IMG/VR virus record: IMGVR_UViG_3300009130_001305
Location: 1 to 64,000 of that record
Direction: 5' to 3' (one strand)
Source: a virus
DNA length: 64,000 nt
Positions 12,339 to 59,806 of the stretch are shown one piece after another. How positions within the stretch are numbered: the stretch's first letter is position 1; each line of letters begins with the position of its first letter. The notes beneath the pieces are model-generated. The model ran no database searches. It was given only the letters and a program-made list of their open reading frames with translations, and was not told where the DNA came from. The translations under genes were made by a program, and so were the position numbers.

Positions 12339-12340
12339 AT

Positions 12341-13129: not shown

Positions 13130-13131
13130 TT

Positions 13132-35488: not shown

Positions 35489-36250
35489 TTATACTTTTAA
35501 GGCCATATCCCATACTAGTAAATGTAGTCTAGGACTAAAATTAAAGTGATGCTTTTTAGCTAACTCTGCAACCATAGGAGCAACTTCAATATGCTCTTTT
35601 CTACTACCAGCGCAAGGCATTAACCAAACACGACCTGTAGGTATATCAAACTTATCAACATACTTTTCCATCACTTCATCTAAATCTGATTCTTTACTTA
35701 TAACAAATTTAAAACCAGATCCGTGATTTGCATGCCATTCTAATACTTTAGGTTTATATCTCCTATCTTCTGGATCACCGTTATTACTGAGCTTAGGAGA
35801 AGTAGTAAATGTAGCACCAACTCTAACCCATTCGTTATCTGGTATAATAGTAGCGTTGGTTTCAAAATCAATTCTAGGAACCCAACCCCATTCTACCTCC
35901 ATATATGCTAAAAATCTAAGTAATGCAGGCTGCTGTACTAAAGGTTCACCACCTGTAATCTTCCATATAGCTCCGTTATATAAATGCTTTTCAAACCCTT
36001 CTTGTTCTAAGTGTTGTAGTAAATCGGCATTTGTAATTCTATTCTTTACACTCCAAGATACATAACTATCACAACCATGCGGAGAGTCATCTGAAGCGAA
36101 ACCCTGACATGTAAGGTTACACATAGATAATCGCATAAAGACCGAAGGATATCCTATAAACTCTCCTTCTCCTTCTACAGTATAAAATACTTTATCATCA
36201 GATAATAGTATTGTCTTATCACTAAGATCTTGTTTATAGAGATTTGTCAT
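35489..36250 (-). CDS. queE: 7-carboxy-7-deazaguanine synthase (QueE)
   Basis: This 253-residue protein has FYTVEGEGEFIGYPSVF (22-38), CNLTC with Cys44 and Cys48 and a third Cys at 60 after an 11-residue insertion, KITGGEPL (the SAM-binding GGE motif) and FETNATI. This is a radical SAM enzyme that converts carboxytetrahydropterin to 7-carboxy-7-deazaguanine, the third step to preQ0. The gapped cysteine motif is normal for some QueE subgroups. It is in the same operon as the 49-aa gene and queD. QueC lies in another operon at 51.5 kb. Confidence 0.95.
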   Translation of the reverse strand: MTNLYKQDLSDKTILLSDDKVFYTVEGEGEFIGYPSVFMRLSMCNLTCQGFASDDSPHGCDSYVSWSVKNRITNADLLQHLEQEGFEKHLYNGAIWKITGGEPLVQQPALLRFLAYMEVEWGWVPRIDFETNATIIPDNEWVRVGATFTTSPKLSNNGDPEDRRYKPKVLEWHANHGSGFKFVISKESDLDEVMEKYVDKFDIPTGRVWLMPCAGSRKEHIEVAPMVAELAKKHHFNFSPRLHLLVWDMALKV

Positions 36251-36385: not shown

Positions 36386-36865
36386 TTAATCCACTGTAGC
36401 TGAAAGGGCAGACCATACTGCAGTTGTATCTTCTACTTCATAAATAGCAGAATTATTTTCATGTTCGAAAACTTCTACTCTTTTACACCAACATCTATCA
36501 TCAGTTAGTTCTTTTACATACTCGTCAGCAGTTCGCCAGCAATATTCAGCAAATTTTTCAATACCAACACCATCCATAATTCTTAAATCTACAATATCAT
36601 CATCGTTTAACATCTTAAAGGCTCTTATTGCAGGGTCGTCAGCGGTAATTACAGTGGTGTGATCGAATTGATGTTGGAGTTTCTTTTTAAGATCTTTTAA
36701 TCCACCAAAGTCAACAACCCAATTATTCTCATCTAACTCTTTAGCTCCAAACCAAAATTTACCAACCAACCGATAACCGTGTACAAACCGGCAATGCGAT
36801 GTAGCTTTAGGCTGTCTGAACGCACAACTACCTAATTCAATAATTTTAGTACTAGAAAAACTCAT
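36386..36865 (-). CDS. queD: QueD-like 6-carboxytetrahydropterin synthase
   Basis: This 159-residue protein has the QueD/PTPS fold signals: CRFVHGYRLVGKFWF (25-39), VVDFGGLKDLKKKLQHQFDH, and a late EVFEHENNSAIYE. The usual zinc motif HGH is HGY here (Tyr31), so the third zinc ligand is changed. QueD converts dihydroneopterin triphosphate to carboxytetrahydropterin, the second step of preQ0 synthesis after FolE. A consensus promoter directly precedes the gene, which leads the queD-queE operon. Confidence 0.9.
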   Translation of the reverse strand: MSFSSTKIIELGSCAFRQPKATSHCRFVHGYRLVGKFWFGAKELDENNWVVDFGGLKDLKKKLQHQFDHTTVITADDPAIRAFKMLNDDDIVDLRIMDGVGIEKFAEYCWRTADEYVKELTDDRCWCKRVEVFEHENNSAIYEVEDTTAVWSALSATVD

Positions 36866-37377: not shown

Positions 37378-37405
37378 TTGATTTATAATTCAAATATGTT
37401 ATAAT
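37378..37405 (+). promoter_or_regulatory. sigma70-like promoter of folE
   Basis: TTGATT (37378-37383), a 16-nt spacer and TATAAT (37400-37405) on the plus strand, with 7 nt to ATG at 37413. A second TATAAT at 37369-37374 has no good -35 element. The -10 overlaps an in-frame ATG at 37404, so the ATG at 37413 is the likely start. Confidence 0.55.
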
Positions 37406-37412
37406 GATTCAT

Positions 37413-38051
37413 ATGAATGAGGATTTACTTCAATACGCTAACGGTAACAAGCCACGAACACAAGAAGAAAAAGAGGCGATAATTAATAAAGCCGCAGCTG
37501 CGTATGAAAAATATATGGATGCATTAGGTTTTGATTGGAGAAATGATCCTAATAGCGCAGACACTCCAAGACGAGTCGCTAAAGCGTTTGTTAACGATCT
37601 AGCAGAAGGATGTTATAGTAATTCACCGAAAATTACAGCATTTGATAATGTTGATAAGTACGATGGTTTAGTATTTCAAGGTAATATTAAAGTTAATTCT
37701 TTTTGCTCACATCATCACTTACCGTTTATTGGTCAAGCTCATGTATCTTATATACCTGGGAAAGATGGTAAGGTAATTGGTTTAAGTAAAATTAATCGTA
37801 TTGTTGAATGGTTTTCAAGACGACCACAAGTACAGGAAAACTTAACTATGCAGATTCATAATTATATGAATGAAGTATGTAAAGAAAATAAAGGCGTTGC
37901 AGTTTTAGTATCAGCTAATCATACATGCGCCGGTCTTAGAGGTGTTAAGCATGATAGTATTATGAAAACTGCTAGAATGTCAGGAGCGTTTTTAGATAAA
38001 ACAGATTTAACTCGTCAAGAGTTTTATGACTTTGTCAGAGATTTAAAATAA
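37413..38051 (+). CDS. folE: GTP cyclohydrolase I
   Basis: This 212-residue enzyme has FCSHHHLPFIGQAHVSYIP and, near the C-terminus, NHTCAGLRGVKH, which hold the zinc ligands Cys, His and Cys of FolE type I. It converts GTP to dihydroneopterin triphosphate, the first step toward preQ0 or folate. With queD, queE and queC in the same genome its role is probably 7-deazaguanine synthesis. The start at 37413 (not 37404) is preferred because the promoter -10 ends at 37405. The stop overlaps the next start as TAATG. Confidence 0.95.
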   Translation: MNEDLLQYANGNKPRTQEEKEAIINKAAAAYEKYMDALGFDWRNDPNSADTPRRVAKAFVNDLAEGCYSNSPKITAFDNVDKYDGLVFQGNIKVNSFCSHHHLPFIGQAHVSYIPGKDGKVIGLSKINRIVEWFSRRPQVQENLTMQIHNYMNEVCKENKGVAVLVSANHTCAGLRGVKHDSIMKTARMSGAFLDKTDLTRQEFYDFVRDLK

Positions 38052-42864: not shown

Positions 42865-43276
42865 AAAAACATATTACGTTAATCCAAAACAATTTTTACA
42901 ACAACTAACAGAATATTATAGCACGGATGATTTAATTGACGAACTAGCTGAGTCAGTTTATAAAATCGCTGTCGGTTTAAGTTATTCTCCAAACTTTATA
43001 AACTATAGTTATAAAGACGAAATGATAGGTGATGCTGTTGTAAAAATGATAGCAGCTGTAAAAAATAAAAAATTTAATCTTGATTCTGAGTCAAATCCGT
43101 TTTCATATTTTACTACTATTGCATATCACGCATTTATTAATAGAATAAAGAAGGAAAAAAAATATAGAGAAACAATTAGTGATTATCAAGAACAAGTATA
43201 TGGATCTTTAGCTGATGAAGAAAGAATTGCTAATAAACAACCAGTTAAAGACTACGATCGAGAATTATACACATAA
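42836..43276 (+). CDS. 55: late RNA polymerase sigma factor (T4 gp55-like)
   Basis: This 146-residue protein resembles T4 gp55 (185 aa): YYVNPKQFLQQLTEYY near the N-terminus, KDEMIGDAVVKMIAAV (helix with the EMI motif), NPFSYFTTIAYHAFINRIKKEKKYRE, the region that holds sigma-2-like contacts. It directs host RNA polymerase to the late promoter TATAAATA; several such boxes exist in this window. The C-terminus is short and lacks a clear clamp-binding SLDFL motif. It shares one nt with the gp47 start. Confidence 0.93.
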   Translation: MKPKTKKPNKKTYYVNPKQFLQQLTEYYSTDDLIDELAESVYKIAVGLSYSPNFINYSYKDEMIGDAVVKMIAAVKNKKFNLDSESNPFSYFTTIAYHAFINRIKKEKKYRETISDYQEQVYGSLADEERIANKQPVKDYDRELYT

Positions 43277-44322
43277 TGGTAACTGAAAACAATAAAAAAA
43301 TCGGCTTCTTCTCCGATTTGCATATTGGCATACATCAAAACAGTGAAAAATGGCATGATGTAGCATTTGAATGGGCAAAATGGTTTACGACGGAGTTAAG
43401 AAAGGAAAAAATCACTAAAATAATATTTGGCGGGGATTTTTTTCACTATAGAGACGAAATAAACGTTAAATCTTTACATTTTGCAAATAATTTACTAGAC
43501 TTATTTAATGATTTTGAAATATTCATGATTCCTGGTAATCATGACGCATATTATAAAGATAACTCGAATGTACATTCACTATCTATTTTAAGTAATAGGA
43601 ACAATATTCATATTATTAATGAACCGAGCGTGCAAAATATGTTCGGGTTTAATATTTGTTTTTGTCCATGGGGAACTAGTATAGGTGAGATTTCAGAATC
43701 TGATTTAATAATCGGACATTTTGAAATTGAAAATTTCAATTTTAATAGCTTTAAAGTATGTGAATCGGGCGTTCAATCGTGTGACTTACTAACAAAATCT
43801 AATCTTATAATTTCTGGTCACTTTCACAAACGTCAGCGTCGAAAATATTCAAATGGAGAGATAATTTATGCAGGAAATCCGTTTGAAATGGATTTTAACG
43901 ATATACAAGACCAGAAAGGTTTTTATATTCTTGATCTTAGTGGGCAAGACATAGAGTATACTTTCATTGAAAATAAAATATCACCTATTCATGTAAAAGT
44001 AAACTTAAGTGAACTTGAAAAACTAAAAACAATCGCAAAGGAGGTCGGTTGGTCGAAGTTAGCTATAAAAATTGTTATTGATAAGGATATAAAGACAAAC
44101 ATACTCGATAAAATAATAGCATCTATAAATTTTGAAGCACCTTTCTCATTAGTAACAGATTATTTACATAAATTTAGTATCGGTGATAATATCGCAATAA
44201 CGAACGAGTTAGGAGACTTGAATATTAAGCAATGTATTATAGAATATATTGAGTCCTTAGATATAGACAACAAGGAAGAAGTAGTAAGGAGAACCGTACA
44301 TTTGTATAATCAATTTGTATGA
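43276..44322 (+). CDS. 47: recombination nuclease subunit (T4 gp47, SbcD/Mre11-like)
   Basis: This 348-residue protein has all metallophosphoesterase motifs of the Mre11/SbcD family: GFFSDLHIGIH (D-x-H), FGGDFFH, IPGNHDAYY, and ISGHFHKRQ (GHFH). With gp46 it forms the nuclease/ATPase that resects DNA ends for recombination-dependent replication. The overlap with gp46 (4 nt, ATGA) means stoichiometric translation. Confidence 0.95.
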   Translation: MVTENNKKIGFFSDLHIGIHQNSEKWHDVAFEWAKWFTTELRKEKITKIIFGGDFFHYRDEINVKSLHFANNLLDLFNDFEIFMIPGNHDAYYKDNSNVHSLSILSNRNNIHIINEPSVQNMFGFNICFCPWGTSIGEISESDLIIGHFEIENFNFNSFKVCESGVQSCDLLTKSNLIISGHFHKRQRRKYSNGEIIYAGNPFEMDFNDIQDQKGFYILDLSGQDIEYTFIENKISPIHVKVNLSELEKLKTIAKEVGWSKLAIKIVIDKDIKTNILDKIIASINFEAPFSLVTDYLHKFSIGDNIAITNELGDLNIKQCIIEYIESLDIDNKEEVVRRTVHLYNQFV

Positions 44323-46139
44323 AGTATATAAATTTCAATTCAATAAAAATTAGTAATTTCTTATCAATCGGAAAAGAGCCGATCGAAATTAATTTCAAAA
44401 CAGGCCTAAACATAATTACCGGTGTTAATAGAGATAAACAAGATAGAAGAAACGGAGTTGGTAAGTCAACAATTGCTGATGCAATACATTTTGCTATTTT
44501 TGGTGAGACTATACGTGAAGTGTCGAAAGACTTTATTGTAAATTCTGTAAATAAGAAAAATACATATGTTGAAGTACATTTTTCAATAAATGAAAACAAT
44601 AAAACAGATAACTATCGCATTATACGTAAATTAAAACCTACAAAATGTTATCTGTATGCTAATGACGTTGATGTAACAGAAAGTACAATACCTAACACTA
44701 GTAAAAAAATAAAAAACATACTTAGTTGCTCTCCTGAGGTATTTCAAAACTGTGTTATAATGTCACTCAACACTACGTTGCCTTTTATGGCACAAAAGAA
44801 GGTTGAAAAAAGAAAATTTATTGAAGGTATTTTAAATTTAGAAATTTTCTCCGATATGTTATTAAGAGCACGGTCTGAATATAATGACGTACAGAAAAAA
44901 TATGAGCACATTACAAAAGACTTTGATCATGCAACTAATATCTTTAAACTTCTCAACGACCAAAAAGAAAAAATAGTAACTAATATTATTGAGAGGAAAA
45001 ATAAAATAAATGATAGAATAAAAATTATAAATGAAGAAATAGAGCAAAATAAAACAAAAATTAAAAAAATAAATAAAGACTTATACAACAAAAGCAAAGA
45101 AAAACTAAAATTTATAAAAAATAAACTAACAGATATTCAAAATCAATTAGACTCTATTTCAAATAAAATTACTCAACATCAAACTGAAATTAAATTTTAT
45201 AAAAAACAAACCTCTAGCATGGGCACGGAGGGGGACAGTTGTCCTGTCTGCTTACGACAAATTACTAGTGAAGATAGAGATCATATCTTACAGGAAAAAA
45301 ATAAAATTAAAAAAGATATCGATAATTGTGAACAAGATATTGAAAGCTTATTACAACAACAAAAAAATATTTTTAATTTAAAGGAAAATAATATTACCGC
45401 CGAGTCTCAACTTAATGAATATATTTCTACTATAAAAACAGTTCATAATAACAACAGATTAACCACGGTACATATTAATAGTCTTGAAAATGATCGAGGT
45501 GAAAATGAAAGCGAATTACAAGAACTAACAAAAAGAGAAACGAGTTTAGAAGTAAAAGAACTAAACAATAAATTAAAAGTAAAAGCAAAAGAAGTTGACG
45601 AATTAGAAGAGGTATCAAATAATATACATTCTGATTTAGAAATATTAGAAGTGGTAAAATATATTTTATCAGAAGAAGGTGTCAAATCATTTATTGTAAA
45701 AAAGATTTTAGATATTTTAAACACACGATTATTATATTATCTACAAAAAATGGACGCAAATTGTATCTGTAGATTTAATGAATATTTTGAAGAAGAAATT
45801 GTAAATGAAAAAAATGAACAGTGCTCATATTTTAATTTTTCTGGTGCTGAGAGAAAAAATATAGATCTTGCTATTTTATTCACATTTATAGATATGAGAA
45901 GGTTACAAGGTGACGTAGCGTATAATCTATTAATGTTCGATGAATTATTAGATAGTTCACTTGATGAGAAGGGAGTAGAACTAGTGTTAAATATAATTAA
46001 TGAACGAGTAGATAAACATCATGAAAGCATATATGTTATCTCTCATAGAAAAGAATCCGTTAAGGCAGCTTCAGGTGAAGTTATTATGCTAGAAAAGAAA
46101 AATAGCGTTACAACGCGTGTGGATTTATCCAATAATTAG
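44319..46139 (+). CDS. 46: recombination nuclease ATPase subunit (T4 gp46, SbcC/Rad50-like)
   Basis: This 606-residue protein has an N-terminal ATP-binding P-loop (GVNRDK...GVGKST), long coiled coils either side of a zinc hook DSCPVCLRQI (CPVC), and a C-terminal signature FNFSGAERKNIDLAIL (LSGGE-like, SGAE) and LLMFDELLDSSLD. It is a somewhat longer version of T4 gp46 (560 aa). It is the ATPase of the gp46/gp47 complex. It is followed 15 nt later by a GT-B glycosyltransferase. Confidence 0.95.
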   Translation: MKYINFNSIKISNFLSIGKEPIEINFKTGLNIITGVNRDKQDRRNGVGKSTIADAIHFAIFGETIREVSKDFIVNSVNKKNTYVEVHFSINENNKTDNYRIIRKLKPTKCYLYANDVDVTESTIPNTSKKIKNILSCSPEVFQNCVIMSLNTTLPFMAQKKVEKRKFIEGILNLEIFSDMLLRARSEYNDVQKKYEHITKDFDHATNIFKLLNDQKEKIVTNIIERKNKINDRIKIINEEIEQNKTKIKKINKDLYNKSKEKLKFIKNKLTDIQNQLDSISNKITQHQTEIKFYKKQTSSMGTEGDSCPVCLRQITSEDRDHILQEKNKIKKDIDNCEQDIESLLQQQKNIFNLKENNITAESQLNEYISTIKTVHNNNRLTTVHINSLENDRGENESELQELTKRETSLEVKELNNKLKVKAKEVDELEEVSNNIHSDLEILEVVKYILSEEGVKSFIVKKILDILNTRLLYYLQKMDANCICRFNEYFEEEIVNEKNEQCSYFNFSGAERKNIDLAILFTFIDMRRLQGDVAYNLLMFDELLDSSLDEKGVELVLNIINERVDKHHESIYVISHRKESVKAASGEVIMLEKKNSVTTRVDLSNN

Positions 46140-46154: not shown

Positions 46155-47375
46155 ATGATTTCTCATTACAATCATATACCTCGCTTGCCATTCGCACCAC
46201 CGCCGACGGGTAATCCGTCTTTAGCTCTACCTCGACATAAAAACGAACGTCCTAAGACAGATAGTGCTGCACCAGATCTTCCCCGAGGTTTAAATTTTTA
46301 CGCAGATTATTCAGGATGTGGTCATTGGAGAATGATCTGGCCAGAGTTGCTGCTTAACTGCTATAATAAAGCAAACGTACAGGGGGGTACGGTAATGATT
46401 GGAGATAAGGCTTTTTATAGTGGAGTTAAAACAGTTCGAATTCAACGACAAGCAACTCAAACTCAAGCAAGTTATATAAAATGGTTAAAAGAATTAGCCA
46501 AAGAATTACATTTTAACGTCATATACGAAATAGACGATATAATATTTAAAGAAGATATACCACATTATAATAAATTTAGATTTGCGTTTGAAGATCCAAA
46601 AATTAGACAAACTAGTATGGAAATCATGGCTGCATGTGATGAAATTACTGTAACCAATAAGTTTATGAAGGAGTACTATATGGAAAAAACCGGTAACAAA
46701 CAAGTAACCGTTGTGCCTAATTTTATTCCTAGATTTTGGATGGATAGATATTTTGATCTTACAAAAATTAAAGAAAATTTTCAAAAATTTAAACATAAAC
46801 CAAGAGTAGTATATTGCGGTAGCGGCGCTCATTTCGATATTGAAAATAGAATCAAACAGAAAGATGATTTTTTCCATATTAACGATGTAATAAGAAAAAC
46901 AGTAGACAAATTCCAATGGGTATTTATAGGCGGGTTTCCATTAACACTAAGAGATTTAATATCACAAAAAAAGATTGAATATCATGAATGGACTAATTTA
47001 GTAGATTACCCTGCGTATATAAACAGTAAGAACCCTACAGTCTTTTACGCTCCATTAGAAAATAGTACTTTTAATAAAGCTAAAAGTGATTTAAAATTTA
47101 TTGAAGGGTGTGCGCTAGGGATTCCGACTATCTGTCAAGACTTATGCACATATGATACTGCATTTCATAAATTCACTACCGGAGATGACTTAATAGATAA
47201 AATAAAATATCTAACTAGTGATTATAAAAAATATATAAAAGAGGTAAGACGAGCTCGAGAGTATATGAAATCCAGATGGATGGAAGATAATATTAACTTC
47301 TACACTGAGTTATATTCATTTCCGTACGGTGATCCAAAGAGAAAAAATCTTAATCGCTTAAACGGAATTAGTTGA
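46155..47375 (+). CDS. GT-B glycosyltransferase inside the replication module
   Basis: This 406-residue protein has a Pro-rich N-terminal tail of about 45 residues and then a GT-B fold: GLNFYADYSGCGHWRMIWP, VIYEIDDIIF, EITVTNKFMKEYY, VTVVPNFIP, RVVYCGSGAHFDI, WVFIGGFP, and FYAPLENSTFNKAKSDLKFIEGC (the donor-binding end with ES/K-like motif). It lies between gp46 and gp43, where T4 has DNA-glucosylating enzymes in nearby regions. Modification of phage DNA or another phage molecule is possible but not shown by sequence. Confidence 0.8.
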   Translation: MISHYNHIPRLPFAPPPTGNPSLALPRHKNERPKTDSAAPDLPRGLNFYADYSGCGHWRMIWPELLLNCYNKANVQGGTVMIGDKAFYSGVKTVRIQRQATQTQASYIKWLKELAKELHFNVIYEIDDIIFKEDIPHYNKFRFAFEDPKIRQTSMEIMAACDEITVTNKFMKEYYMEKTGNKQVTVVPNFIPRFWMDRYFDLTKIKENFQKFKHKPRVVYCGSGAHFDIENRIKQKDDFFHINDVIRKTVDKFQWVFIGGFPLTLRDLISQKKIEYHEWTNLVDYPAYINSKNPTVFYAPLENSTFNKAKSDLKFIEGCALGIPTICQDLCTYDTAFHKFTTGDDLIDKIKYLTSDYKKYIKEVRRAREYMKSRWMEDNINFYTELYSFPYGDPKRKNLNRLNGIS

Positions 47376-47407: not shown

Positions 47408-50065
47408 GTGTATAGAAACTTAGCGTACATACCAAATCAGCGCATTATGCGGCTGTATACATGGGACGAGAATGGAGTTAGAATTGAAACTGATTGTCCG
47501 TATCGTCCATATTTTTATTCTGAAACGAATTCAAATCGATACGACGCAACTTCATTGTATGGTACAAAACTTCGAAGACATATTGCAAACAGCGAGCTAG
47601 ATAGAAGAAAAAAAATCGAAGATCTTAATGATCATAAAATTTATGAAAATATTTCTCCCTACCAACAATTTTTAGTTGATAGGTTTTGGGAAGTAAACGA
47701 AACAGACGAATTTAGCAAGTTCCCTCTTAAGATATGGTTCTTTGATATTGAGACATATTCCCCTGACGAGTTTCCAAAACCAGACGAAGCCAGTCATATG
47801 ATTAATGTAATTACTATCTATGACACCGTCGAAAAAATGTATTTTACGTGGGGTATTAATCCATATAAACCAAAATCTGATGACGTAAAATATATTCACT
47901 GCAAGTCTGAGGTTGAATTATTACAAAAGTTTTTAGATTTTTACTGCAAGGATCGACCTGATATTTTATCTGGTTGGGCTAGTGAGACTTTTGATATACC
48001 ATATGTAATTAATCGAGTTAGAAACTTATTAGGAGAAGACGCTACCCGGTTATTTTCACCCGTACATGATGAAATTATGAAGCCAATTTACCAACGTGTG
48101 TACCGTGGTAATTTCGGTCAACAAACATCAAAATACGTAGTTGAAGGGGTATCAATGTTAGATTATCTAGATGTGTATAAAACCTTCAGCATGGGCATGA
48201 AAGATAGTTATAAGTTAGATAATATAGCTCATATAGAACTAGGAGAGAACAAGGTAGATATAGGAGAAACTAACCTTGCAACACTGTCTATAGAAGATTG
48301 GGACAAATTTGTTGATTACAATATTCATGACGTAAGATTGTTAGTAAAACTGGATGCTAAGCTCATGTATATGGATTTAGCAAGAATGCTGTCTTACATA
48401 GGGTTAACTCCATTTAACGCGGCATTAGGTACTATTAGTACAGTTAATGGTCGTGCTATCGTTGAAGCGAGAAAGTCAGACCCACCTAGAGTTATACCAA
48501 CTTTTATAAAAGGAGATGACAGATCTGGTAAGTATGAGGGAGCGTATGTAGGTGAACCTCAGCGTGGATTTCAAAAAAATATTATATCATTTGATGCTAA
48601 CTCACTATATCCGAGTGTGATGGTAACTCTTAATTTAAGCCCGGAAACAAAGATCGGTAGTATTGTAGGCACAGATAATGGTAAGGTATATATAAAGACA
48701 ATAAACAATAAAGATATTGAAATGTCTTATGGGGATTTTAATAAATGGTGCGCTAAAAATGAAATAGCAGTAACAAGAGCTAAGAAGCTTTTTTCACAAA
48801 AGAACAAAGGAATTTTTCCTAGAATTACAGATCACTTTTATGCTATACGATCAGGAAAAAAACAAGAATGGAACGAAGCTCGTGAAGAATTACATCAACT
48901 ATCAGTAAAATTAGAAAAAGAAACTAACAACGAATCAAAGAAAATTTTACAACAAAAGATAAATGACACTAAATTTAAAATTGATCAATTATGGATCTGG
49001 CAATTTACGTTAAAAATTCTTATTAACAGGATTTATGGATATTTTGGTAATAAAAACTCCGCCATGGCTGATGGTGATATTGCACGGTCAATTACGCTAA
49101 CTGGACGAGATGTAATTAAACAAAGCAATATTATTCTAAGAAATTATATAAAAAGAGTAACAGGATTATCTGATAGAGAACTAGATAATAACGATCCTAT
49201 TATTTATAATGATACAGATAGTTCGTATTGTACAATAACTCCGATCCTCGAGAATTTAAATATCCCGCTGCATGAAAATAATAAAATAGATGATAGGGTT
49301 TATAAATTAGTACAAGACATCGAAGACGATTTAAATGTTCATATTGAAAAATGGGCGAGAGAAACATTACTAACTAAAGATCCTAGATTTGTTTTTAAGC
49401 GAGAGTCTATTTGTGATAAAGGTATATTTTTACAAAAGAAGCGATACGTCTTACACAAACTAGATGATGAAGGAGTTGTTTGTAATAAATTTAAATACAC
49501 TGGAGTAGAAGTAGTTCGAACTACTATGCCCAATGCAATAAAACCATATGTAAAGAAAATTATCGAACATATGATTATGACTGAAAATCAAGTCACTACA
49601 AATGAAATTTTTGAAGAGACATATGAGATTTTTAAATCATTACCTATAAGAGATATTGCGTTTGTTATGGGTGTTAAAGAATACGAAAAATATAGTATAT
49701 ATGCTAAAGACTGGACAGTTAAAAAAGGAACACCGATTCATGTAAAATCTTCTATATATTATAATAAACTTTTAGATCATTATAACATCTCTAATAACCA
49801 CGAATATATTAGCTCCGGTGATAAGATAAGATATTTTTATACAGTTTCTCCTAACAAGTTTGGTTTGAATTCGTTAGGTTTTAAGTACGACATACCACCG
49901 GAATTTGAACAAGATTTTAAAATAGACTATGAAAAAATGTTTGATAAAATCGTTTATAGTGTTATTGATAGGTTTTATGACAACGTAAACTGGAAGTCGT
50001 TTCGACCCGGGGAAGCTGTTAATACGGATTTATTTGATTTCTTTAAAATACCCGTTGCAAATTAA
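47408..50065 (+). CDS. 43: family B DNA polymerase (T4 gp43-like)
   Basis: This 885-residue enzyme is close to T4 gp43 (898 aa). The exonuclease domain has FDIET (Exo I), DILSGWASETFDIPYVINR (Exo II region) and YNIHDVRLL (Exo III). The polymerase domain has DANSLYPSVM (motif A), KILINRIYGYFGNKNS (motif B) and YNDTDSSYC (motif C). It replicates phage DNA with proofreading. The start codon is GTG at 47408, with a promoter directly upstream and no clear Shine-Dalgarno sequence. Confidence 0.97.
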   Translation: MYRNLAYIPNQRIMRLYTWDENGVRIETDCPYRPYFYSETNSNRYDATSLYGTKLRRHIANSELDRRKKIEDLNDHKIYENISPYQQFLVDRFWEVNETDEFSKFPLKIWFFDIETYSPDEFPKPDEASHMINVITIYDTVEKMYFTWGINPYKPKSDDVKYIHCKSEVELLQKFLDFYCKDRPDILSGWASETFDIPYVINRVRNLLGEDATRLFSPVHDEIMKPIYQRVYRGNFGQQTSKYVVEGVSMLDYLDVYKTFSMGMKDSYKLDNIAHIELGENKVDIGETNLATLSIEDWDKFVDYNIHDVRLLVKLDAKLMYMDLARMLSYIGLTPFNAALGTISTVNGRAIVEARKSDPPRVIPTFIKGDDRSGKYEGAYVGEPQRGFQKNIISFDANSLYPSVMVTLNLSPETKIGSIVGTDNGKVYIKTINNKDIEMSYGDFNKWCAKNEIAVTRAKKLFSQKNKGIFPRITDHFYAIRSGKKQEWNEAREELHQLSVKLEKETNNESKKILQQKINDTKFKIDQLWIWQFTLKILINRIYGYFGNKNSAMADGDIARSITLTGRDVIKQSNIILRNYIKRVTGLSDRELDNNDPIIYNDTDSSYCTITPILENLNIPLHENNKIDDRVYKLVQDIEDDLNVHIEKWARETLLTKDPRFVFKRESICDKGIFLQKKRYVLHKLDDEGVVCNKFKYTGVEVVRTTMPNAIKPYVKKIIEHMIMTENQVTTNEIFEETYEIFKSLPIRDIAFVMGVKEYEKYSIYAKDWTVKKGTPIHVKSSIYYNKLLDHYNISNNHEYISSGDKIRYFYTVSPNKFGLNSLGFKYDIPPEFEQDFKIDYEKMFDKIVYSVIDRFYDNVNWKSFRPGEAVNTDLFDFFKIPVAN

Positions 50066-50082
50066 TTTTTTGATAATATAAT
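50055..50082 (+). promoter_or_regulatory. sigma70-like promoter upstream of the uvsX operon
   Basis: TTGCAA (50055-50060), a 16-nt spacer and TATAAT (50077-50082), then 6 nt to the ATG at 50089. The -35 box lies in the last codons of the polymerase gene. Confidence 0.55.
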
Positions 50083-50088
50083 AATTAC

Positions 50089-50445
50089 ATGGATATCATT
50101 ACATACATTGATAGTATAGGTAGGACGTGTTTCGGAGAGCTAGTAGAGCAAACAGATTCACTTTTAAGAGTTAAAGCACCAGCGATGATTATGGTAACGC
50201 CCAATGACGCTGCTAATATGAAAGTTGATGTTATGCCGTTATTCTTTACTGAATTTTCTAGCGGTGAAGCGCCAATATTTAAATATCTAAACACTCAATA
50301 CACAGAAGTCGAGGTTACTATTTCCGATAAAATATTAGTTCATTATAATGCTAAGATTAATGTTAAGGAAGAAGCGAACCCTGAACCAGCAGCAGCCCCG
50401 CTATCTGACGAGAACATACCCGAAGTAACATTATTCGAGGAATAA
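50089..50445 (+). CDS. conserved phage protein, 118 aa
   Basis: This protein begins MDIITYIDSIGRTCFGELVEQ, has VKAPAMIMVTPNDAANMKVDVMPLFF in the middle and an acidic Pro/Ala-rich tail (about 95-118). The same layout, with a strand-rich core and PLFF motif, occurs in other marine T4-like phages, from memory. The fold suggests a small beta-barrel; function unknown. It starts the uvsX-queC operon and ends 1 nt before uvsX. Confidence 0.6.
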   Translation: MDIITYIDSIGRTCFGELVEQTDSLLRVKAPAMIMVTPNDAANMKVDVMPLFFTEFSSGEAPIFKYLNTQYTEVEVTISDKILVHYNAKINVKEEANPEPAAAPLSDENIPEVTLFEE

Positions 50446-50446: not shown

Positions 50447-51535
50447 ATGTCAAAACTGGTTGATAAGGCATTTGCTAAGCTCCAAAAGCTTAACAGCAAT
50501 GCTACTACTTTAGAGAAAAACACTCTGAGTAATGTAACAGAGTGGATTGATACAGGTTGTTTAGTATTAAATTCTATCCTATCTGGGTCACTACATGGTG
50601 GCGTACCTAAGGGTAGAATTACAATTTTCGCTGGAGAGTCTCAATGCGGTAAGACTTTTATTTTAAATAAAATTCTCGCTAAAGCTCAAAAGCAAGGAAT
50701 GATACCTATAATATTTGACACAGAGGTCGCTATTGAAAAAGAAGGTGCAGAAAATGTAGGTCTAGATGTTTCTAATGTAAAGTATGTTCCAATAGATACT
50801 GTAGAAAACTGTCGTAATCAAATAATGGCATTTTTAGATGAAGTAGAAAATGAACCAGAACTTCACGGAAAATTTATTATATCAATAGATTCATTAGGTA
50901 ATTTAGCATCATCAAAAGAAATTCTTGATGCTGAGTCTAATAAAGGAGCCATGGACATGGGGCTGCGGGCCAAACAGCTAAAATCCATGATGCGTATTAT
51001 TACATATAAAGCCGCGGTGACCGGTACAACTATTATATGTAGTAATCATACATATGCTGATCCTGGTGCACTCCATCCTACCTTAGTCAAGCAACAAGCT
51101 GGTGGGTCGGGTCCTATGTACATGGCTTCTTTATTAGTTCAAATGGCAGCTAAAAAAGAAAGAACTGATGCTTCAAACGACAACGATGAGGCACTATCAG
51201 AAAGTAGAAACTACTCTGGAGTTACTCTTCGAATGCTTACTGTAAAAAATAGATTTATTCCAGCATTTTTACAAGCTGAAGCATATTTAAATTTCAAAAC
51301 AGGTCTAGAAAAATATTCTGGATTAAAAGATATTGCCGTATCTCACGGTATTGTACAACAAAATGGTTCTACATATAGTATGGGAGATAAAAAATTAGGT
51401 TATTATAAGAATTGGCGCAATGACGAAGAGACGTGGAAATCTATATTACCTAAGTTAGAATCTTCTATAAATGAAAAATACCGGTATGGTAAATCATTAG
51501 AAGAGGGTGCTATATTAGAACAAGAAGATGAGTAA
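50447..51535 (+). CDS. uvsX: UvsX-like RecA recombinase
   Basis: This 362-residue protein has TGCLVLNSILSGS, FAGESQCGKT (Walker A), a following Glu-rich strand PIIFDTEVAIE, FIISIDSLGNLAS (Walker B) and a C-terminal QQAGGSGPMYMAS loop 2-like segment. Length is as for T4 UvsX (391 aa) less a shorter tail. It forms presynaptic filaments with UvsY and gp32 for strand exchange. A GAGGA Shine-Dalgarno sequence lies 6 nt before the ATG. The stop overlaps queC by 8 nt. Confidence 0.95.
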   Translation: MSKLVDKAFAKLQKLNSNATTLEKNTLSNVTEWIDTGCLVLNSILSGSLHGGVPKGRITIFAGESQCGKTFILNKILAKAQKQGMIPIIFDTEVAIEKEGAENVGLDVSNVKYVPIDTVENCRNQIMAFLDEVENEPELHGKFIISIDSLGNLASSKEILDAESNKGAMDMGLRAKQLKSMMRIITYKAAVTGTTIICSNHTYADPGALHPTLVKQQAGGSGPMYMASLLVQMAAKKERTDASNDNDEALSESRNYSGVTLRMLTVKNRFIPAFLQAEAYLNFKTGLEKYSGLKDIAVSHGIVQQNGSTYSMGDKKLGYYKNWRNDEETWKSILPKLESSINEKYRYGKSLEEGAILEQEDE

Positions 51536-52238
51536 AGCAGTTGTACCTATTTCAGGAGGCTTAGATAGTTCAGTAATCTTAAGTGTTGCATCGCAAAAAC
51601 ACGACGAGGTATACGCATTAACATACAACTACGGTCAAAAGCACAATAAAGAAATTGAATATGCTAAGCTTCAAGTTGAGCGTTATAATCGACAGCTAGA
51701 TGGTCTGAATAATAATATTAAAGAGCATAAGATTATAGATATAACTTTTTTTAGAGATATTGCTCCAACCTCCTCACTCACAAACAATAATATAAAAGTA
51801 GCACATGCTCGAGATGTATTAGGAGACGCTCAGACTGTAAACTATGTACCGTTTCGTAATATGATGATGTTGTCTATTGCATGTTCATATGCTGAAGCAG
51901 TCGGTGCTGATACTGTTTATCATGGATCAGCTTTAGTAGATAGTCAAGCTGGGTACTGGGATGGTAGTAAGGAATTTTTAACTGAAATTAATAGCGTTAC
52001 GAGTTTAAATAGAAAAAATCTAATTAAAATAGAGGCACCATTAATTGAACTATCTAAGAGAGAAATCATAAAGATAGGATTAGATAATGGTGTGTGTTTC
52101 GAAGATACTTGGACTTGTTATGAAGGTGAAGAAATTGCATGTGGTTATTGTACTGCTTGTAGTTCACGTATACAAGGATTTTTAGAGAATAAAATTAAAG
52201 ACCCAATTAAATATGAGCGAACAGATATACCATGGTAA
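51528..52238 (+). CDS. queC: 7-cyano-7-deazaguanine synthase (QueC)
   Basis: This 236-residue enzyme has VVPISGGLDSSVIL (PP-loop ATP site), ALTYNYGQKHNKEIEYA, NYVPFRNMMMLSIACSYAEAVGA and a C-terminal zinc motif WTCYEGEEIACGYCTACSSR. QueC uses ATP and ammonia to convert 7-carboxy-7-deazaguanine through the amide to preQ0. It is the last step of the folE-queD-queE-queC set. Being in the uvsX operon, rather than with queD and queE, means it is expressed with replication genes. Confidence 0.96.
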   Translation: MSKAVVPISGGLDSSVILSVASQKHDEVYALTYNYGQKHNKEIEYAKLQVERYNRQLDGLNNNIKEHKIIDITFFRDIAPTSSLTNNNIKVAHARDVLGDAQTVNYVPFRNMMMLSIACSYAEAVGADTVYHGSALVDSQAGYWDGSKEFLTEINSVTSLNRKNLIKIEAPLIELSKREIIKIGLDNGVCFEDTWTCYEGEEIACGYCTACSSRIQGFLENKIKDPIKYERTDIPW

Positions 52239-53169
52239 AGAGCTAGAATATTCTGATATCTTATTAGTACCAGGATATAGTCAATTAGATACTCGAAACA
52301 ACGCTGACACATCTTTTAAATTAGGTAAGTTTACATTTAATCTACCGGTTGTTCCATCTAATATGGAAACGGTAATAGATCTAAAACTTTGTAAGCAATT
52401 GGATGATAATAATTATTTTTATATTATGCATCGATTTCATGATGTATTTGAAACCGTACGACAACTTAATGAGCTTAATTGTAATTGTGTAAGCGTCAGT
52501 ATAGGGGTAAATGAAAAATCATATCAAGAATTAGAAGCAGTTATAGATAATAATTATAAAGTTGATATTATTACAATTGATGTTGCGCATGGTCATCATC
52601 AAAAAGTCGGTAATATGATTAGATATGTTAAAAAGAATCTACCTGATACTATAATTATTGCTGGTAATGTTGGAACATACGAAGGATTTCATTTCTTAGA
52701 AGACGCTGGTGCTGACGTTGTTAAAGTAGGAATTGGATCTGGAGTTATTTGTACTACGAGATATAAAACAGGTTTTGGTACACCAATGTTTTCAACATTA
52801 TTAAAAATTACCTCACATAAAACAAAAGCTAAAATAATGGCTGATGGTGGTTGTCGAGAATTTGGAGATGTTGCGAAGGCATTAGCCGCTGGAGCAGATT
52901 GTGTAATGGCTGGTTCTTTCTTCGCAGGATGTGTAGACTCACCAGCTAAAATTGTTGACGGGTTTAAAGAGTATTATGGAAGCACGTCATATACACAAAA
53001 GGGAGATAAATTAAATTTCGTTGAAGGGAGACAAATAGAAATAGACTTAGCTCCAGAGTATAATATTAGATTAAGAGAGATTGAAAAGGCTCTTAAAAGC
53101 TCCATTTCGTACGCTGGGTGCAAAGATTTAAGTTGCCTAAGCGTTACAAAGTTCATACAATTAAAATAA
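52213..53169 (+). CDS. GMP reductase/IMP dehydrogenase family enzyme
   Basis: This 318-residue TIM-barrel protein has SNMETV, IIAGNVGTYEG, GADVVKVGIGSGVICTTRYKTGFG with active-site Cys180, IMADGGCREFGDVAKALAAGADCVMAGS and YYGSTS. There is no CBS pair, and the layout is nearer to GMP reductase (GuaC) than to IMP dehydrogenase. GMP reductase converts GMP to IMP with NADPH. In a phage that alters guanine, a role in balancing guanine nucleotides is plausible but unproven. It overlaps queC by 26 nt and lies between queC and an amidotransferase. Confidence 0.85.
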   Translation: MSEQIYHGKELEYSDILLVPGYSQLDTRNNADTSFKLGKFTFNLPVVPSNMETVIDLKLCKQLDDNNYFYIMHRFHDVFETVRQLNELNCNCVSVSIGVNEKSYQELEAVIDNNYKVDIITIDVAHGHHQKVGNMIRYVKKNLPDTIIIAGNVGTYEGFHFLEDAGADVVKVGIGSGVICTTRYKTGFGTPMFSTLLKITSHKTKAKIMADGGCREFGDVAKALAAGADCVMAGSFFAGCVDSPAKIVDGFKEYYGSTSYTQKGDKLNFVEGRQIEIDLAPEYNIRLREIEKALKSSISYAGCKDLSCLSVTKFIQLK

Positions 53170-53170: not shown

Positions 53171-53809
53171 ATGTGTGGTATTTTCGGTTCAACAGATATT
53201 AAAACGTTTAGAGAGCTATATACAAAGAACTCAGAAAGAGGTAATTTTGTACGTAGTGTAACAATGATATTCCCTAGCGGGCTGAAAGATAATGTTCGTG
53301 TAATGACGAAATACGAACAAGACTTTGATAGACATATAGAAGAACACCCATTTTGTTTATATTATCTAGGACATGTACAGTCTCCTACGACAGAAGTTAG
53401 AACATTTAGTACTGATACATCACATCCATTTTCATATAAAAACACATACTTAGCGCATAACGGAGTACTGCAAAATTTTGATAAATTAAAAGAAAAATAC
53501 GCACTATCAGGTAAAGTCAATAAAGTAGATAGTAGTATAATATTACCGTTGATATATATGTCTGGTATACAAAACGCTTTATCAGAAATTGAAGGTACAT
53601 TTGGATGTTGGATGTATGAACCAGATATGGGTAGGTTACGTATTTTTAGATCAGGTTCTACATTATTTACTGATAATAAATCATTTAGTTCTGCGCCGTT
53701 TTCAGAATGGGATATGGCGGAGGAGGGAACAATATATGAATTTAATTTTAGTAAAAATAACTTTACTAAAACTGAAACATTTAAATTAAATTCTCCATTT
53801 TTTATATGA
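53171..53809 (+). CDS. class II glutamine amidotransferase
   Basis: This 212-residue protein starts MCGIFG, with the N-terminal Cys2 nucleophile of class II (Ntn) amidotransferases, and has HVQSPTTEV, TDTSHPF and LAHNGVLQN (the glutamine-binding segment) and VDSSIILPL. It is a glutaminase domain that releases ammonia for a partner. In archaea, a fusion of such a domain with QueC (Gat-QueC) makes archaeosine from preQ0. Here the domain is a separate protein one gene after queC, which suggests a split version, though this is inference. It overlaps the next gene by 4 nt. Confidence 0.85.
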   Translation: MCGIFGSTDIKTFRELYTKNSERGNFVRSVTMIFPSGLKDNVRVMTKYEQDFDRHIEEHPFCLYYLGHVQSPTTEVRTFSTDTSHPFSYKNTYLAHNGVLQNFDKLKEKYALSGKVNKVDSSIILPLIYMSGIQNALSEIEGTFGCWMYEPDMGRLRIFRSGSTLFTDNKSFSSAPFSEWDMAEEGTIYEFNFSKNNFTKTETFKLNSPFFI

Positions 53810-54507
53810 AAACTTTAATCGCAGTTGCAACGAAACATAGTAATTCAGGCTTTACGCGAACTAAACTATCTCAAAGTTTAACCTATCACGAAAACAACAC
53901 TATTACCACGTTTGACCTCGAACCTACATATAAAAATACTGATGGTTTATGCTCCGTATATAATGACTATTTGTCATCAAATAATCTAAAAAAATATGAT
54001 TGTATTTTATTTGTTCACGATGATGTGTTTATTGATAGTATAAATTTTTTAAAACAAATCCGTACTCAATTCCAACAAGGGTTTGACGTAGTAGGATTAG
54101 CTGGTGGTAGTAAGTTGCGAGTTCGAAAACCTTGTTTATGGCATTTAATGTGTAATCCAACTAGCTTATCTGGAATAGTATCACATTATACAAAAGCTAC
54201 AGAATATGCACCAACTATATTTGGACCAACTCCACGAGAAGTAATCTTACTTGACGGGTTGTTTTTCGCTGTACGTACTAAATCCATCGTACAACAGAAA
54301 ATAAGATTTGATAATAATCTTAAGGGATTTCATCATTATGATTTGAAGTTTTGTTTAGACTGTCATTTAGCAGGGTTGCGATTAACTACTGCTCCTATTC
54401 ATGTTATTCATGAATCACCCGGTCTTCTCAACCACACAGAGGAGTATAGCAAATCAGAAGATTACTTCTATAATACTGTCGTTAAATATGCTAACAAACG
54501 AAAGTAA
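53806..54507 (+). CDS. GT2-like glycosyltransferase in the replication/modification operon
   Basis: This 233-residue protein has CILFVHDDVFID (HDD, DxD-like metal site) near 66-76, DVVGLAGGS, LLDGLFFAVRT and GFHHYDLKFCLDCHLAGLRL, matching the Glyco_tranf_2_5-type GT-A layout, with a final VIHESPG. It sits between the class II amidotransferase and gp41, so it may glycosylate a DNA base, a phage protein or another molecule. It is coupled to the amidotransferase by a 4-nt overlap. Confidence 0.7.
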   Translation: MKTLIAVATKHSNSGFTRTKLSQSLTYHENNTITTFDLEPTYKNTDGLCSVYNDYLSSNNLKKYDCILFVHDDVFIDSINFLKQIRTQFQQGFDVVGLAGGSKLRVRKPCLWHLMCNPTSLSGIVSHYTKATEYAPTIFGPTPREVILLDGLFFAVRTKSIVQQKIRFDNNLKGFHHYDLKFCLDCHLAGLRLTTAPIHVIHESPGLLNHTEEYSKSEDYFYNTVVKYANKRK

Positions 54508-55840
54508 TTACTTAGACATAGATTTAGAGTATTTAGAAAAGGTAGTTTTTAAGAACTGTCTAGAAGATGAAATTTATCTAAATTCTATTATTGATAATCT
54601 TAATTATAAATTTTTTAAGAATAAAGACTTTCAGCAAATAATTAAAATCATTCAAGCACTTTATCGGAAGAATAATAGACGTCCGACTATTACTGAATTA
54701 CAATTATATTTAAACACACCACAACTTAAACAGCATTATGAAGCAAGTAAAAAAATCATTGATGTTTTAGAAGTAGAATTATCTAATGACTTATTACTAT
54801 CTTACACAGAAAAGTTTTTACAAGAACAAGCTGTGTTTAATACATTTTTAGAAATTGTTGATAATAAAGAAAGAGATGTAAAAAGCATTCATGATAAATT
54901 CTCAAAAGCATGTAACATCTCTATTACGACAAATATAGGTCATAATTATTTTAAAGACGTAGAACAACATATTACTGACCTAACGACACGGGAAGAAAAA
55001 ATTAAAACAGGCTGGGATTGGCTTGATACTAGATTAGGAGGAGGGTTCCTCGAACAAGGGCGTAGTATGTATATTTTTGCTGGTCCTACTAACGTTGGAA
55101 AATCTATATTCTTGAGTAATATAGCAAGTAACGCTGCAGCAGCAGATAAAAATGTTTTAGTTGTTTCTCTTGAAATGTCAGAAATGATTTATTGTAAACG
55201 AATTACATCTAAGCTTACTGGGTTACCTATAAATCATTTAGATGATCATGTCGAAGAATTGAGAGATAGAGTAGGTAAATTCAAAATAACACACCCTCGA
55301 GGAAATATTATAATTAAAGAATTTGCTCCGAGTTCAATTACACCTCCACAATTAGAAGGTTTTATAAAAAAACTAATAAACAAAAAATTTAAACCTGATA
55401 TTATTGTACTTGATTATTTAAACTTAATGGCAAGTACATATGGTAATAATTCGTATGAACGAATAAAAAGTATATCTGAACAAGTAAGAGCAATGTCATA
55501 TACTTTTGAATGTCCAATTGTATCTGCAACACAAGTAAATAGAACAGGATACGGTACGGGTAATAATGCCGGTGGACCTGGGTTAGATGCTATTGGTGAG
55601 AGTTATGGTCTAGGAGCTACTGCAGACGCAATAGTTAGTATATGGAGAACAGAAGAGGACGAAGAAGATGATGCTCTTCATATAGGTATTATTAAAAATC
55701 GATTTGGCTCTAACACAGGTAGTACTCGAGTGTCAATAGACTATAACACTCTTACTCTTACAGAGAATAACGATTTGAATATAAATGAAGATGTGAACGC
55801 TGCGGAAGATGACGCTGTACAATTCGGAAGAGTGATGTAA
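54488..55840 (+). CDS. 41: replicative DNA helicase (T4 gp41, DnaB-like)
   Basis: This protein of 450 residues has IFAGPTNVGKSIFLSNIA (Walker A), LVVSLEMSEM (motif H2-like), FKPDIIVLDYLNLM (Walker B) and PIVSATQVNRTG, the hallmarks of hexameric DnaB-family helicases. The start at 54488 (Met-Leu-Thr-Asn-Glu) is preferred: a longer frame from 54401 would run far into the previous gene. It unwinds the fork with the primase gp61 in the T4 primosome. It overlaps the previous gene by 20 nt. Confidence 0.95.
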   Translation: MLTNESNYLDIDLEYLEKVVFKNCLEDEIYLNSIIDNLNYKFFKNKDFQQIIKIIQALYRKNNRRPTITELQLYLNTPQLKQHYEASKKIIDVLEVELSNDLLLSYTEKFLQEQAVFNTFLEIVDNKERDVKSIHDKFSKACNISITTNIGHNYFKDVEQHITDLTTREEKIKTGWDWLDTRLGGGFLEQGRSMYIFAGPTNVGKSIFLSNIASNAAAADKNVLVVSLEMSEMIYCKRITSKLTGLPINHLDDHVEELRDRVGKFKITHPRGNIIIKEFAPSSITPPQLEGFIKKLINKKFKPDIIVLDYLNLMASTYGNNSYERIKSISEQVRAMSYTFECPIVSATQVNRTGYGTGNNAGGPGLDAIGESYGLGATADAIVSIWRTEEDEEDDALHIGIIKNRFGSNTGSTRVSIDYNTLTLTENNDLNINEDVNAAEDDAVQFGRVM

Positions 55841-58674: not shown

Positions 58675-59097
58675 ATGGAAGACGAAGTTGCACTAAAAAT
58701 GTTCATTCATCAAATGAATGATCAAGCTAAGGACCTGAACAAGAATATTGTTCAAAAAAGCGCTACAATGCAGGATATTCCTGTAGAAAAAGGAATATAT
58801 AAAAAGAAGAATAATAAGGCGAATGCTCAGCAATTAGCTGCACAGCAACAAATGCTTATTCAACAGCAACAGCAATTAGCTGCACAGCAACAAGTCGTTC
58901 CTCAACAAGTTATCCCTCAACAACAAGTGACTGGAGATCCCGCTCTGTTAAACAATTTAATAGAGCGGGTGTCTTCCGTTGAGAAACAACTTACAAAATT
59001 CCTGACTCTAATTGAACGTAGACTTGCAAAGAACGCAAAAGAAATTAATATACGAATCAAATTGAACGAAGATAATGATTCTACCAATAAAGAATAA
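58675..59097 (+). CDS. glutamine-rich low-complexity protein with internal repeat
   Basis: This 140-residue protein has a charged N-terminus, then a Gln-rich region (about 52-86) with the unit QQLAAQQQ twice, encoded by a perfect 24-nt direct repeat at 58828-58851 and 58870-58893. The C-terminal 45 residues form a likely coiled coil (NNLIERVSSVEKQLTKFLTLIERRLAKN), carried by codons that include a strong hairpin (58939-58969). A trimeric or dimeric coiled-coil tether is a reasonable guess. I know no family. It directly follows gp32 by 1 nt. Confidence 0.6.
   Translation: MEDEVALKMFIHQMNDQAKDLNKNIVQKSATMQDIPVEKGIYKKKNNKANAQQLAAQQQMLIQQQQQLAAQQQVVPQQVIPQQQVTGDPALLNNLIERVSSVEKQLTKFLTLIERRLAKNAKEINIRIKLNEDNDSTNKE
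58828..58893 (+). repeat. perfect 24-nt direct repeat, two copies
   Basis: CAGCAATTAGCTGCACAGCA plus four more bases occurs at 58828-58851 and again at 58870-58893, separated by 18 nt. It encodes the QQLAAQQQ unit of the Gln-rich protein. This kind of repeat is prone to expansion and deletion. Confidence 0.8.
58939..58969 (+). repeat. 31-nt RNA hairpin, 14-bp stem, CAA loop
   Basis: CCCGCTCTGTTAAA, loop CAA, TTTAATAGAGCGGG: 13 Watson-Crick pairs and one G-U pair on the plus-strand transcript. It lies inside a coding region and has no U-run after it, so it is not a normal terminator. On the minus strand the wobble would be an A-C mismatch, so a plus-strand RNA function, such as processing or stability of the gp32-downstream message, is more likely. 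Confidence 0.6.
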
Positions 59098-59806
59098 AGA
59101 TAATTTTATTCAAAATTTTCTTAATCCAGTCTCGCGATTAGACTCATCTGTAACACTAGATATAAATGACAATATATCTACTATAGTACATAATAATTCT
59201 AATATTTTTCTTAAAGCAGAATATAAGATTAACTGGGTGGAGCAACCCGATCGAAATAATATATGTTTACCAGATACAGTAAAACTAATTAAAATTTTAT
59301 CATGTTTAGATGAAGATAATATTGATCTAGAAATACAGACTAATTGTATAAAATATAATAGCAGTGCTAATCGATTTACATATCATTTATTTGATAGTAG
59401 CATAGCTAAAAACGGTGTATTTAATTTTGATAAAATTGATGACATTACATTTAGTACTAACTTTAAACTGACAAAAGAAAAGAACAGCGCAATATTAAAA
59501 GCACTACCGTTCGTTACCGAATCAAGTAAACTATATCTTAAAACCGAAAACACAAATGTGTACGCCGAACTGTCAGATAAAAAACTACAAAACGTTGACA
59601 GTTATACTACAATACTCGCCGAAGGGTATGAAGGAGATAAATTAGATTATGAATTAATTTTAGATATAGAGCTATTTAGACTAATATCCATATTGAGCTT
59701 TTCCGAAGCAACGATATATATAAATAACGAGTATAAAATGCTTATGATTAAACTTCAATTAGAAGGCAGTAATCTTACATTTGTCAGTACTAGTTATAAA
59801 AATTAA
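59075..59806 (+). CDS. 45: sliding clamp (T4 gp45-like)
   Basis: This 243-residue protein has the pattern of T4 gp45 (228 aa): NFIQNFLNPVSRLDSSVTLDIND at the start, IFLKAEYKINW, LPDTVKLIKILSCL, then FKLTKEKNSAILKALPFV, a second domain and a final LEGSNLTFVSTSYKN, with alternating strands as in PCNA-like clamps. It would form the ring that tethers gp43 and is loaded by gp44/gp62. Confidence rests on fold pattern, length and location among replication genes. It overlaps the previous gene by 23 nt. Confidence 0.75.
   Translation: MILPIKNKDNFIQNFLNPVSRLDSSVTLDINDNISTIVHNNSNIFLKAEYKINWVEQPDRNNICLPDTVKLIKILSCLDEDNIDLEIQTNCIKYNSSANRFTYHLFDSSIAKNGVFNFDKIDDITFSTNFKLTKEKNSAILKALPFVTESSKLYLKTENTNVYAELSDKKLQNVDSYTTILAEGYEGDKLDYELILDIELFRLISILSFSEATIYINNEYKMLMIKLQLEGSNLTFVSTSYKN

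Follow-up and report, generated by a model that had tools for sequence, protein, structure and literature searches.

A conserved glycosyltransferase gene beside the DNA polymerase gene of uncultured T4-like phages, and its possible part in DNA modification

What a glycosyltransferase might do in the middle of a phage replication operon is a question raised by a 64,000-nucleotide stretch of viral DNA (the window; positions 1 to 64,000 of IMG/VR record IMGVR_UViG_3300009130_001305, itself a fragment of 67.8 kb). A first-pass annotation had noticed a glycosyltransferase gene there, here called GT1, and had asked whether the phage glycosylates modified bases in its DNA. Circumstantial support for that idea is now stronger, as GT1, a second glycosyltransferase (GT2), QueC, a glutamine amidotransferase (GAT) and RmlB/RmlD-like enzymes are locked into one operon, and a DpdA-like protein occurs in relatives. 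The suggested likeness to T4, however, is limited to gene place and fold.

GT1 and its place beside the polymerase gene

The GT1 reading frame (46155-47375, plus strand) begins with ATG and encodes 406 amino acids. The protein matches phrog_7162 'glycosyltransferase' (E 7.9e-22), and its Pfam matches are weak: PF13524 at E 0.015 (15.7 bits; cut-off 25) and PF13439 at E 0.054 (14 bits; cut-off 28.5). Because these domains fall below their curated cut-offs, the protein is called GT4-like. An AlphaFold2 model, for which an alignment of 36 GT1 relatives (A1) served as input, predicts a GT-B fold (pLDDT 84.8, pTM 0.81) with residues 1-35 disordered. The best PDB matches of the model are GT-B enzymes of the GT4 type, among them 6kih, BshA, MshA, PimA and SPS (Z 21-25 over 282-322 residues), which places the predicted fold closest to GT4 enzymes. 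Known acceptors of these fold neighbours are small molecules, lipids and glycans. Across 58 GT1 sequences, 57 columns are at least 98% conserved, with K310, S311 and E317 among them. The EX7E-type motif is a signature of GT4 glycosyltransferases; in GT1, its second glutamate may correspond to E317, while the position eight residues earlier (309) holds Ala, Ser or Cys-like small residues and not Glu.

The disordered N-terminal tail (window 46155-46260) carries a conserved PF motif, found in 95 of 99 distinct tails against a mean of 35 after shuffling; three of the four tails that lack it look truncated by the start-codon rule applied. It is possible that the motif serves for docking. Isoelectric point was considered as a hint of DNA binding and set aside as not discriminating, with medians of 8.99 for the GT1 family and 8.66 for 18 glycosyltransferase-like proteins of the glycan island, and values of 6.11 for T4 AGT and 9.05 for BGT.

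The gene lies, as the first-pass annotation had it, between gp46 and gp43, in the core replication operon and outside the glycan island; family, fold and place all uphold that description. The order is UvsW, gp55, gp47, gp46, GT1, gp43, UvsX, QueC, ..., gp41, gp32, gp45, and the genes are tightly packed or overlapping. Upstream of GT1 on the plus strand are a gp47-like (SbcD) subunit (43276-44322; phrog_100, E 5.4e-59) and, directly before GT1, a gp46-like recombination nuclease subunit (44319-46139), named by reading its sequence and by its place after gp47. Only 15 nt separate the end of gp46 from the start of GT1, and 32 nt lie between the GT1 stop and the start of the family-B DNA polymerase gene gp43 (47408-50065, plus strand; tblastn to T4-like phage DNA polymerases, best about 31%). 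The glycan island occupies window positions 3579-33676, separate from GT1, and contains genes that read as glycosyltransferases, methyltransferases and nucleotide-sugar enzymes. A late-promoter word, TATAAATA, was also tried as a signal and rejected, being no more frequent than chance would give in this AT-rich window (20 seen vs 25 expected).

The constancy of this place was examined in viral loci gathered by three scans: one seeded with GT1 (best 80 of 197 relatives, from 200 pattern matches), one with a distant GT1 member (53 loci) and one with a distant gp43 (best 80 of 331 relatives, from 344 matches), the last seed being used so that loci would not be chosen by GT1. Among those best 80 gp43 relatives, GT1 was found upstream of gp43 in 59 of the 60 loci with more than 1 kb of upstream DNA. 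The sole exception, L206, has 2 kb of upstream DNA. In the related locus L205, about 3 kb lie between the GT1 match and gp43; since L205 carries such an insert, L206 may simply end inside one. Wherever all three genes were present, they followed the order gp46-GT1-gp43 on one strand (71/71, 43/43 and 51/51 loci in the three sets, which share some contigs; 149 of 212 loci compared have the GT1 core, 108 of them differing from one another in DNA). Two distant matches differ. In L143 (GT1 about 35% identical), four small open reading frames separate gp43 from the GT1 gene upstream of it, and no QueC was found in its 19 kb; in L144 (27-29%), the GT1 match adjoins packaging genes. GT1 thus has a constant position in an uncultured T4-like clade, to a degree far beyond chance.

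Among close relatives, median identity is 74.8% for GT1 (57 loci), 86.4% for gp43 and 73.3% for gp46; in the deep set (51 loci), it is 54.4% for GT1, 48.1% for gp43, 44.0% for gp46 and 47.9% for UvsX. Paired comparisons have GT1 more conserved than gp43 in 40 of 41 cases in the deep set, but never in the two closer sets (0 of 44 and 0 of 12). With identity levels beside those of gp43, gp46 and UvsX, GT1 behaves like a core gene of the replication region. Its base composition resembles that of the neighbouring genes, and hence gives no sign of recent import. Outside the clade, matches are scarce: none of 65 pattern matches in 84,980 prokaryote genomes (genome_contigs) proved to be a relative, just three of 50,697 phage records gave a match, with 22-25% identity, and the one plasmid match (26%) is in a megaplasmid. 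Together, these observations support a replication-linked role for GT1.

Genes that accompany GT1

Downstream of gp43, the plus strand encodes the UvsX recombinase (50447-51535; phrog_97, E 1.6e-59), a QueC-like 7-cyano-7-deazaguanine synthase (51528-52238; phrog_1550, E 6.5e-58; PF06508), an IMPDH/GMP-reductase-like protein (52213-53169; PF00478, E 1.5e-60), the class-II (Ntn) glutamine amidotransferase GAT (53171-53809; PF13522, E 1.2e-10) and GT2 (53806-54507; PF13712, E 9.2e-14). In the window, the four genes from QueC to GT2 run nearly gapless into that of the gp41 replicative helicase (54488-55840, plus strand; phrog_19, E 9.7e-77), whose gene probably begins inside GT2, with a 20-nt overlap. 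The earlier reading of GT2 as a second glycosyltransferase stands, but it does not adjoin queC: it is three genes further on, directly after GAT, with the IMPDH-like gene and GAT between. The IMPDH-like gene belongs to part of the clade only, being missing from the QueC-GAT interval in several relatives, while the other members of the series are constant. QueC follows UvsX in every locus with room for it (26/26, 19/19 and 27/27), GAT follows QueC in 21/21 and 16/16 loci, and GT2 follows GAT in 21/21 and 8/8. Freshwater-type relatives have a GNAT-like acetyltransferase gene between GAT and GT2 (L252:4619-5095, L102, L109, L136, L137).

Further along the same strand are a gene for what we take, from its sequence and its place in the operon, to be a gp45-like sliding clamp (59075-59806), with homologues in the regions of all seven relatives, and two sugar-nucleotide genes. 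The first of these encodes an RmlD-like NAD-dependent sugar-nucleotide reductase (60381-61289, plus strand; PF04321, E 1.8e-12; TIGR01214, E 3.6e-11, below cut-off) and the second an RmlB-like dTDP-glucose 4,6-dehydratase (61264-62286, plus strand; TIGR01181, E 3.1e-94, 315.7 bits vs a cut-off of 365.1). In the window, as in the regions read from all seven relatives, the two are placed after gp45 and before RNase H/gp61. In L258, the RmlB match is spread over two open reading frames, so this copy may be broken or mis-assembled. L253 and L254 have RmlA-like genes in this operon as well, and G003, the record of a near relative, has one at another place. The best phage matches of RmlB fall in the Stephanstirmvirinae (ESCO5 group).

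The remaining genes for making preQ0 are also present in the window, which encodes QueE (35489-36250, minus strand; phrog_2076, E 7.5e-46), QueD (36386-36865, minus strand; phrog_2389, E 2.5e-35) and the GTP cyclohydrolase FolE (37404-38051, plus strand; phrog_2197, E 1.2e-58) in addition to QueC. QueC was detected in 12 of 12 records of the clade (PF06508). Vibrio and Pseudomonas phages have QueC-GAT pairs too. The pair adjoins DpdA2 and QueF in Vibrio phage 1.081.O and the DNA polymerase gene in pf16, and Vibrio 2.275.O has it close to QueF and FolE. Since such pairs accompany DpdA2, QueF and FolE in other phages, the pair belongs to the 7-deazaguanine pathway.

A search of the 12 records with the PF01702 HMM for DpdA, the transglycosylase of that pathway, gave no match. 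Reading the open reading frames of G003 (200,819 bases with an end repeat of about 119 bases; GT1 97% identical) nevertheless led to a diverged DpdA-like protein, supported by tblastn and by fold. It shares 46% identity with a protein annotated as DNA guanine transglycosylase in Flavobacterium phage immuto, and about 40% with proteins of Campylobacter firehammerviruses. The protein occurs in 10 of 19 relatives' records, including all four of at least 185 kb; the nine misses are fragments of 19.7-132 kb. Five models built from an alignment ranged in pLDDT from 55 to 82, the best reaching 82.3. The matches of the model include tRNA-guanine transglycosylases (TGTs) at E ~1e-7 and, in rank 41, the crystal structure of DpdA, 7ui4 (E 1.2e-6), so that relatives of the window phage are predicted to encode a DpdA-like protein with a TGT fold.

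The same TGT-fold family is present, unannotated, in Campylobacter firehammerviruses (CP21 record NC_019507, 41312-42088; relative L082:12802-13617, minus strand). Campylobacter phages with dADG in their DNA are listed as having no DpdA (PMC6884629), and the firehammervirus protein may fill that gap as their transglycosylase. After the DpdA-like gene, G003, G010 and immuto have formyltransferase-like (PF00551 in G003) and thymidylate-kinase-like genes (L082 ~11333-13617; L262; L156:19998-22002), while in L259-L261 the thymidylate-kinase-like gene follows with no formyltransferase-like gene. The formyltransferase-like neighbour hints at a formylated base. G003 also encodes a large protein that reads as a carbamoyltransferase (48504-50294).

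Comparison with known systems

Three families of DNA glycosyltransferases are described: alpha-GT (PF11440), beta-GT (PF09198) and TAGT (PF20691) (PMC13216743). GT1 lies outside all three, as a Pfam scan at E <= 1 returned only PF13524 and PF13439. When alignment A1 was compared with T4 AGT and BGT by hhalign, just 21-25 columns aligned at E ~0.05, scarcely better than the E 0.11 of the unrelated gp46 control; the templates were single sequences, and a remote kinship could therefore still exist. Neither T4 enzyme is among the 50 PDB matches listed for the GT1 model. In a library of viral structures, two proteins that bear the name DNA alpha-GT or alpha-glucosyltransferase rank 18th and 26th (TM ~0.5), far behind the uncharacterised phage glycosyltransferases that hold ranks 1-3 (TM 0.89, 0.70 and 0.69).

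The comparison with T4 that had been suggested at the outset therefore succeeds in part: gene place and GT-B fold are shared, and no sequence kinship was detected. The statement that the T4 DNA glucosylating genes lie near 47/55 holds for a-gt, beside 47.1 towards 55, but not for b-gt, which is found between 42 and segA/uvsX. Both T4 and the present clade have a T4-type replication region, in which a glycosyltransferase gene lies close to gp46/47 and a further sugar gene close to uvsX/gp41. They differ in the probable chemistry. The T4 enzymes use UDP-glucose as donor, whereas the operon of the clade has dTDP-sugar enzymes. Moreover, the thymidylate-synthase family PF00303, which includes dCMP hydroxymethylase, was detected in just one of 12 records (G015), with no match in G003, which has end repeats, or in the window's own 67.8 kb fragment. 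With no such enzyme in 11 of the 12 records and no kinship of GT1 to the T4 enzymes, glucosylation of hydroxymethylcytosine (hmC) of the T4 type was rejected as a likely route. Consequently, if the DNA does carry a sugar, the base concerned would be a different one, perhaps a 7-deazaguanine. Sharing place and fold but not sequence with the T4 enzymes, GT1 may work like the known DNA glycosyltransferases without being one of them. T4 alpha-GT is reported to bind, and to co-purify with, the clamp gp45 (PMC13216743).

A second parallel is the arabinosyl-hmC system of RB69 (ORF003c, ORF53_52c, ORF055c), also from a T4-like phage, in which a glycosyltransferase and candidate sugar-donor genes, the latter near uvsX, are reported in the replication region (PMC6024577). 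The RB69 system is described as acting on hmC (PMC6024577), and its likeness to the system of the clade is one of gene place.

With the phage 7-deazaguanine DNA pathway (FolE, QueD, QueE, QueC, GAT/QueF/ArcS and DpdA; Hutinet 2019, PMC6884629), the clade shares FolE, QueD, QueE, QueC and GAT in the window and the DpdA-like protein in relatives. The pathway as known has no glycosyltransferase, whereas the clade adds GT1, GT2 and RmlB/RmlD-like enzymes. Phages with QueC-GAT and preQ0 genes, such as Vibrio 1.081.O and pf16, gave no GT1 match in the search of 50,697 records, and the sugar is thus not part of the known pathway. The same is true of immuto and the firehammerviruses, which have the DpdA-like family (40-46% identical) and, in immuto, the adjoining formyltransferase and kinase genes, but no GT1 match among those records. 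In the titles and abstract openings of the papers that literature searches listed, neither a glycosylated 7-deazaguanine in DNA nor this gene arrangement was found described.

The clade may correspond to the Far-T4 phages, uncultured aquatic T4-like viruses reported to have Que genes and a T4-type replication module (PMC4360716, PMC7198788). The string 'glycosyl', however, occurs 0 times in the main texts of these two papers.

Candidate acceptors of GT1

The fixed place beside gp43, together with GT2, sugar-nucleotide genes and 7-deazaguanine genes in one operon, makes DNA the leading candidate acceptor. That GT1 and GT2 together attach a sugar to the freshly replicated DNA of the phage itself is accordingly the reading preferred here, put forward tentatively as one that falls slightly short of being probable. 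The donor would probably be a dTDP-6-deoxyhexose from the RmlB/RmlD-like enzymes of the operon. The acceptor is probably not hydroxymethylcytosine, and the best candidate would be a 7-deazaguanine made by FolE, QueD, QueE and QueC (with GAT) and then inserted into the DNA through the DpdA-like transglycosylase. In the most specific version of this reading, GT1 and GT2 would act at the replisome on the inserted base, using the phage-made dTDP-sugar. The purpose may be to evade nucleases.

To our knowledge, the 7-deazaguanines of DNA (preQ0, preQ1, G+ and ADG) have no side-chain hydroxyl for a sugar and offer nitrogen, not oxygen. A glycosylated 7-deazaguanine in DNA, in which an amino, amide or amidine group might carry a 6-deoxyhexose, would be a previously undescribed hypermodification, and as a specific structure it is rather unlikely. 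In huimycin, the 2-amino group of a preQ0-type base is the site at which a glycosyltransferase is proposed to attach GlcNAc (PMC7439116). There are also real counter-points to a DNA acceptor in general: GT1 has no kinship to known DNA glycosyltransferases and its fold neighbours have other acceptors, other phages with 7-deazaguanine genes gave no GT1 match among the records searched, the ESCO5/phi92-like groups are reported to be sensitive to restriction, GT1 is less conserved than gp43 throughout the two closer sets, and the GT1 matches of L143 and L144 are outside the operon.

The strongest rival has GT1 and GT2 glycosylating a protein, either of the virion or an early replication or transcription protein, with the operon place reflecting expression timing only. 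SdgB, a GT4-type enzyme whose acceptor we take to be a protein, is among the fold matches of GT1. Phapecoctavirus ESCO5 (Stephanstirmvirinae; NC_047776, 107401-110545) has four glycosyltransferase genes, one of them a distant GT1 relative (about 26%), beside primase/helicase, DNA methyltransferase and DNA polymerase I genes. It belongs to a group, the Vequintavirinae and relatives including phi92-like phages with putative dTDP-glycosylation machinery, that is reported to be exceptionally susceptible to restriction (PMC8594841), and so replication-side glycosyltransferase genes need not act on DNA. A protein acceptor leaves the invariable linkage with QueC and GAT unexplained, however, and with a virion target one would expect GT1 to lie near structural genes, a linkage that the clade does not show. 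This explanation therefore appears rather unlikely, though it deserves serious weight.

Improbable, by comparison, is a part for GT1 in a surface-glycan programme, that is, remodelling of host LPS or capsule, or superinfection exclusion. The same phage does have a large, glycosyltransferase-rich glycan island (3.6-33.7 kb), and RmlA, RmlB and RmlD normally feed O-antigen rhamnose. Yet GT1 is apart from the island, is conserved throughout the clade in a constant position, unlike typical host-specific surface glycosyltransferases, and has no close cellular relative among the 84,980 prokaryote genomes. There is equally little to recommend action on a small molecule (a pterin, or a free deazaguanine from FolE, QueD, QueE and QueC) or on tRNA queuosine: the UDP-glucose:tetrahydrobiopterin glucosyltransferase 5zes (Z 21.1) and the small-acceptor enzymes BshA and MshA are fold neighbours, and the sugar of huimycin is on a free base (PMC7439116), but dozens of other GT4 enzymes rank at least as well as 5zes, and the DpdA-like protein suggests that the base enters DNA.

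If the preferred reading is true, with a glycosylated 7-deazaguanine as the product, pyrimidine sugars and 7-deazaguanines, two big strategies by which phages mask their DNA, would be joined in one base. The clade concerned is common in the aquatic viromes of IMG/VR. A core gene of an uncultured lineage would thereby be explained, and it would represent a new class of DNA glycosyltransferase.
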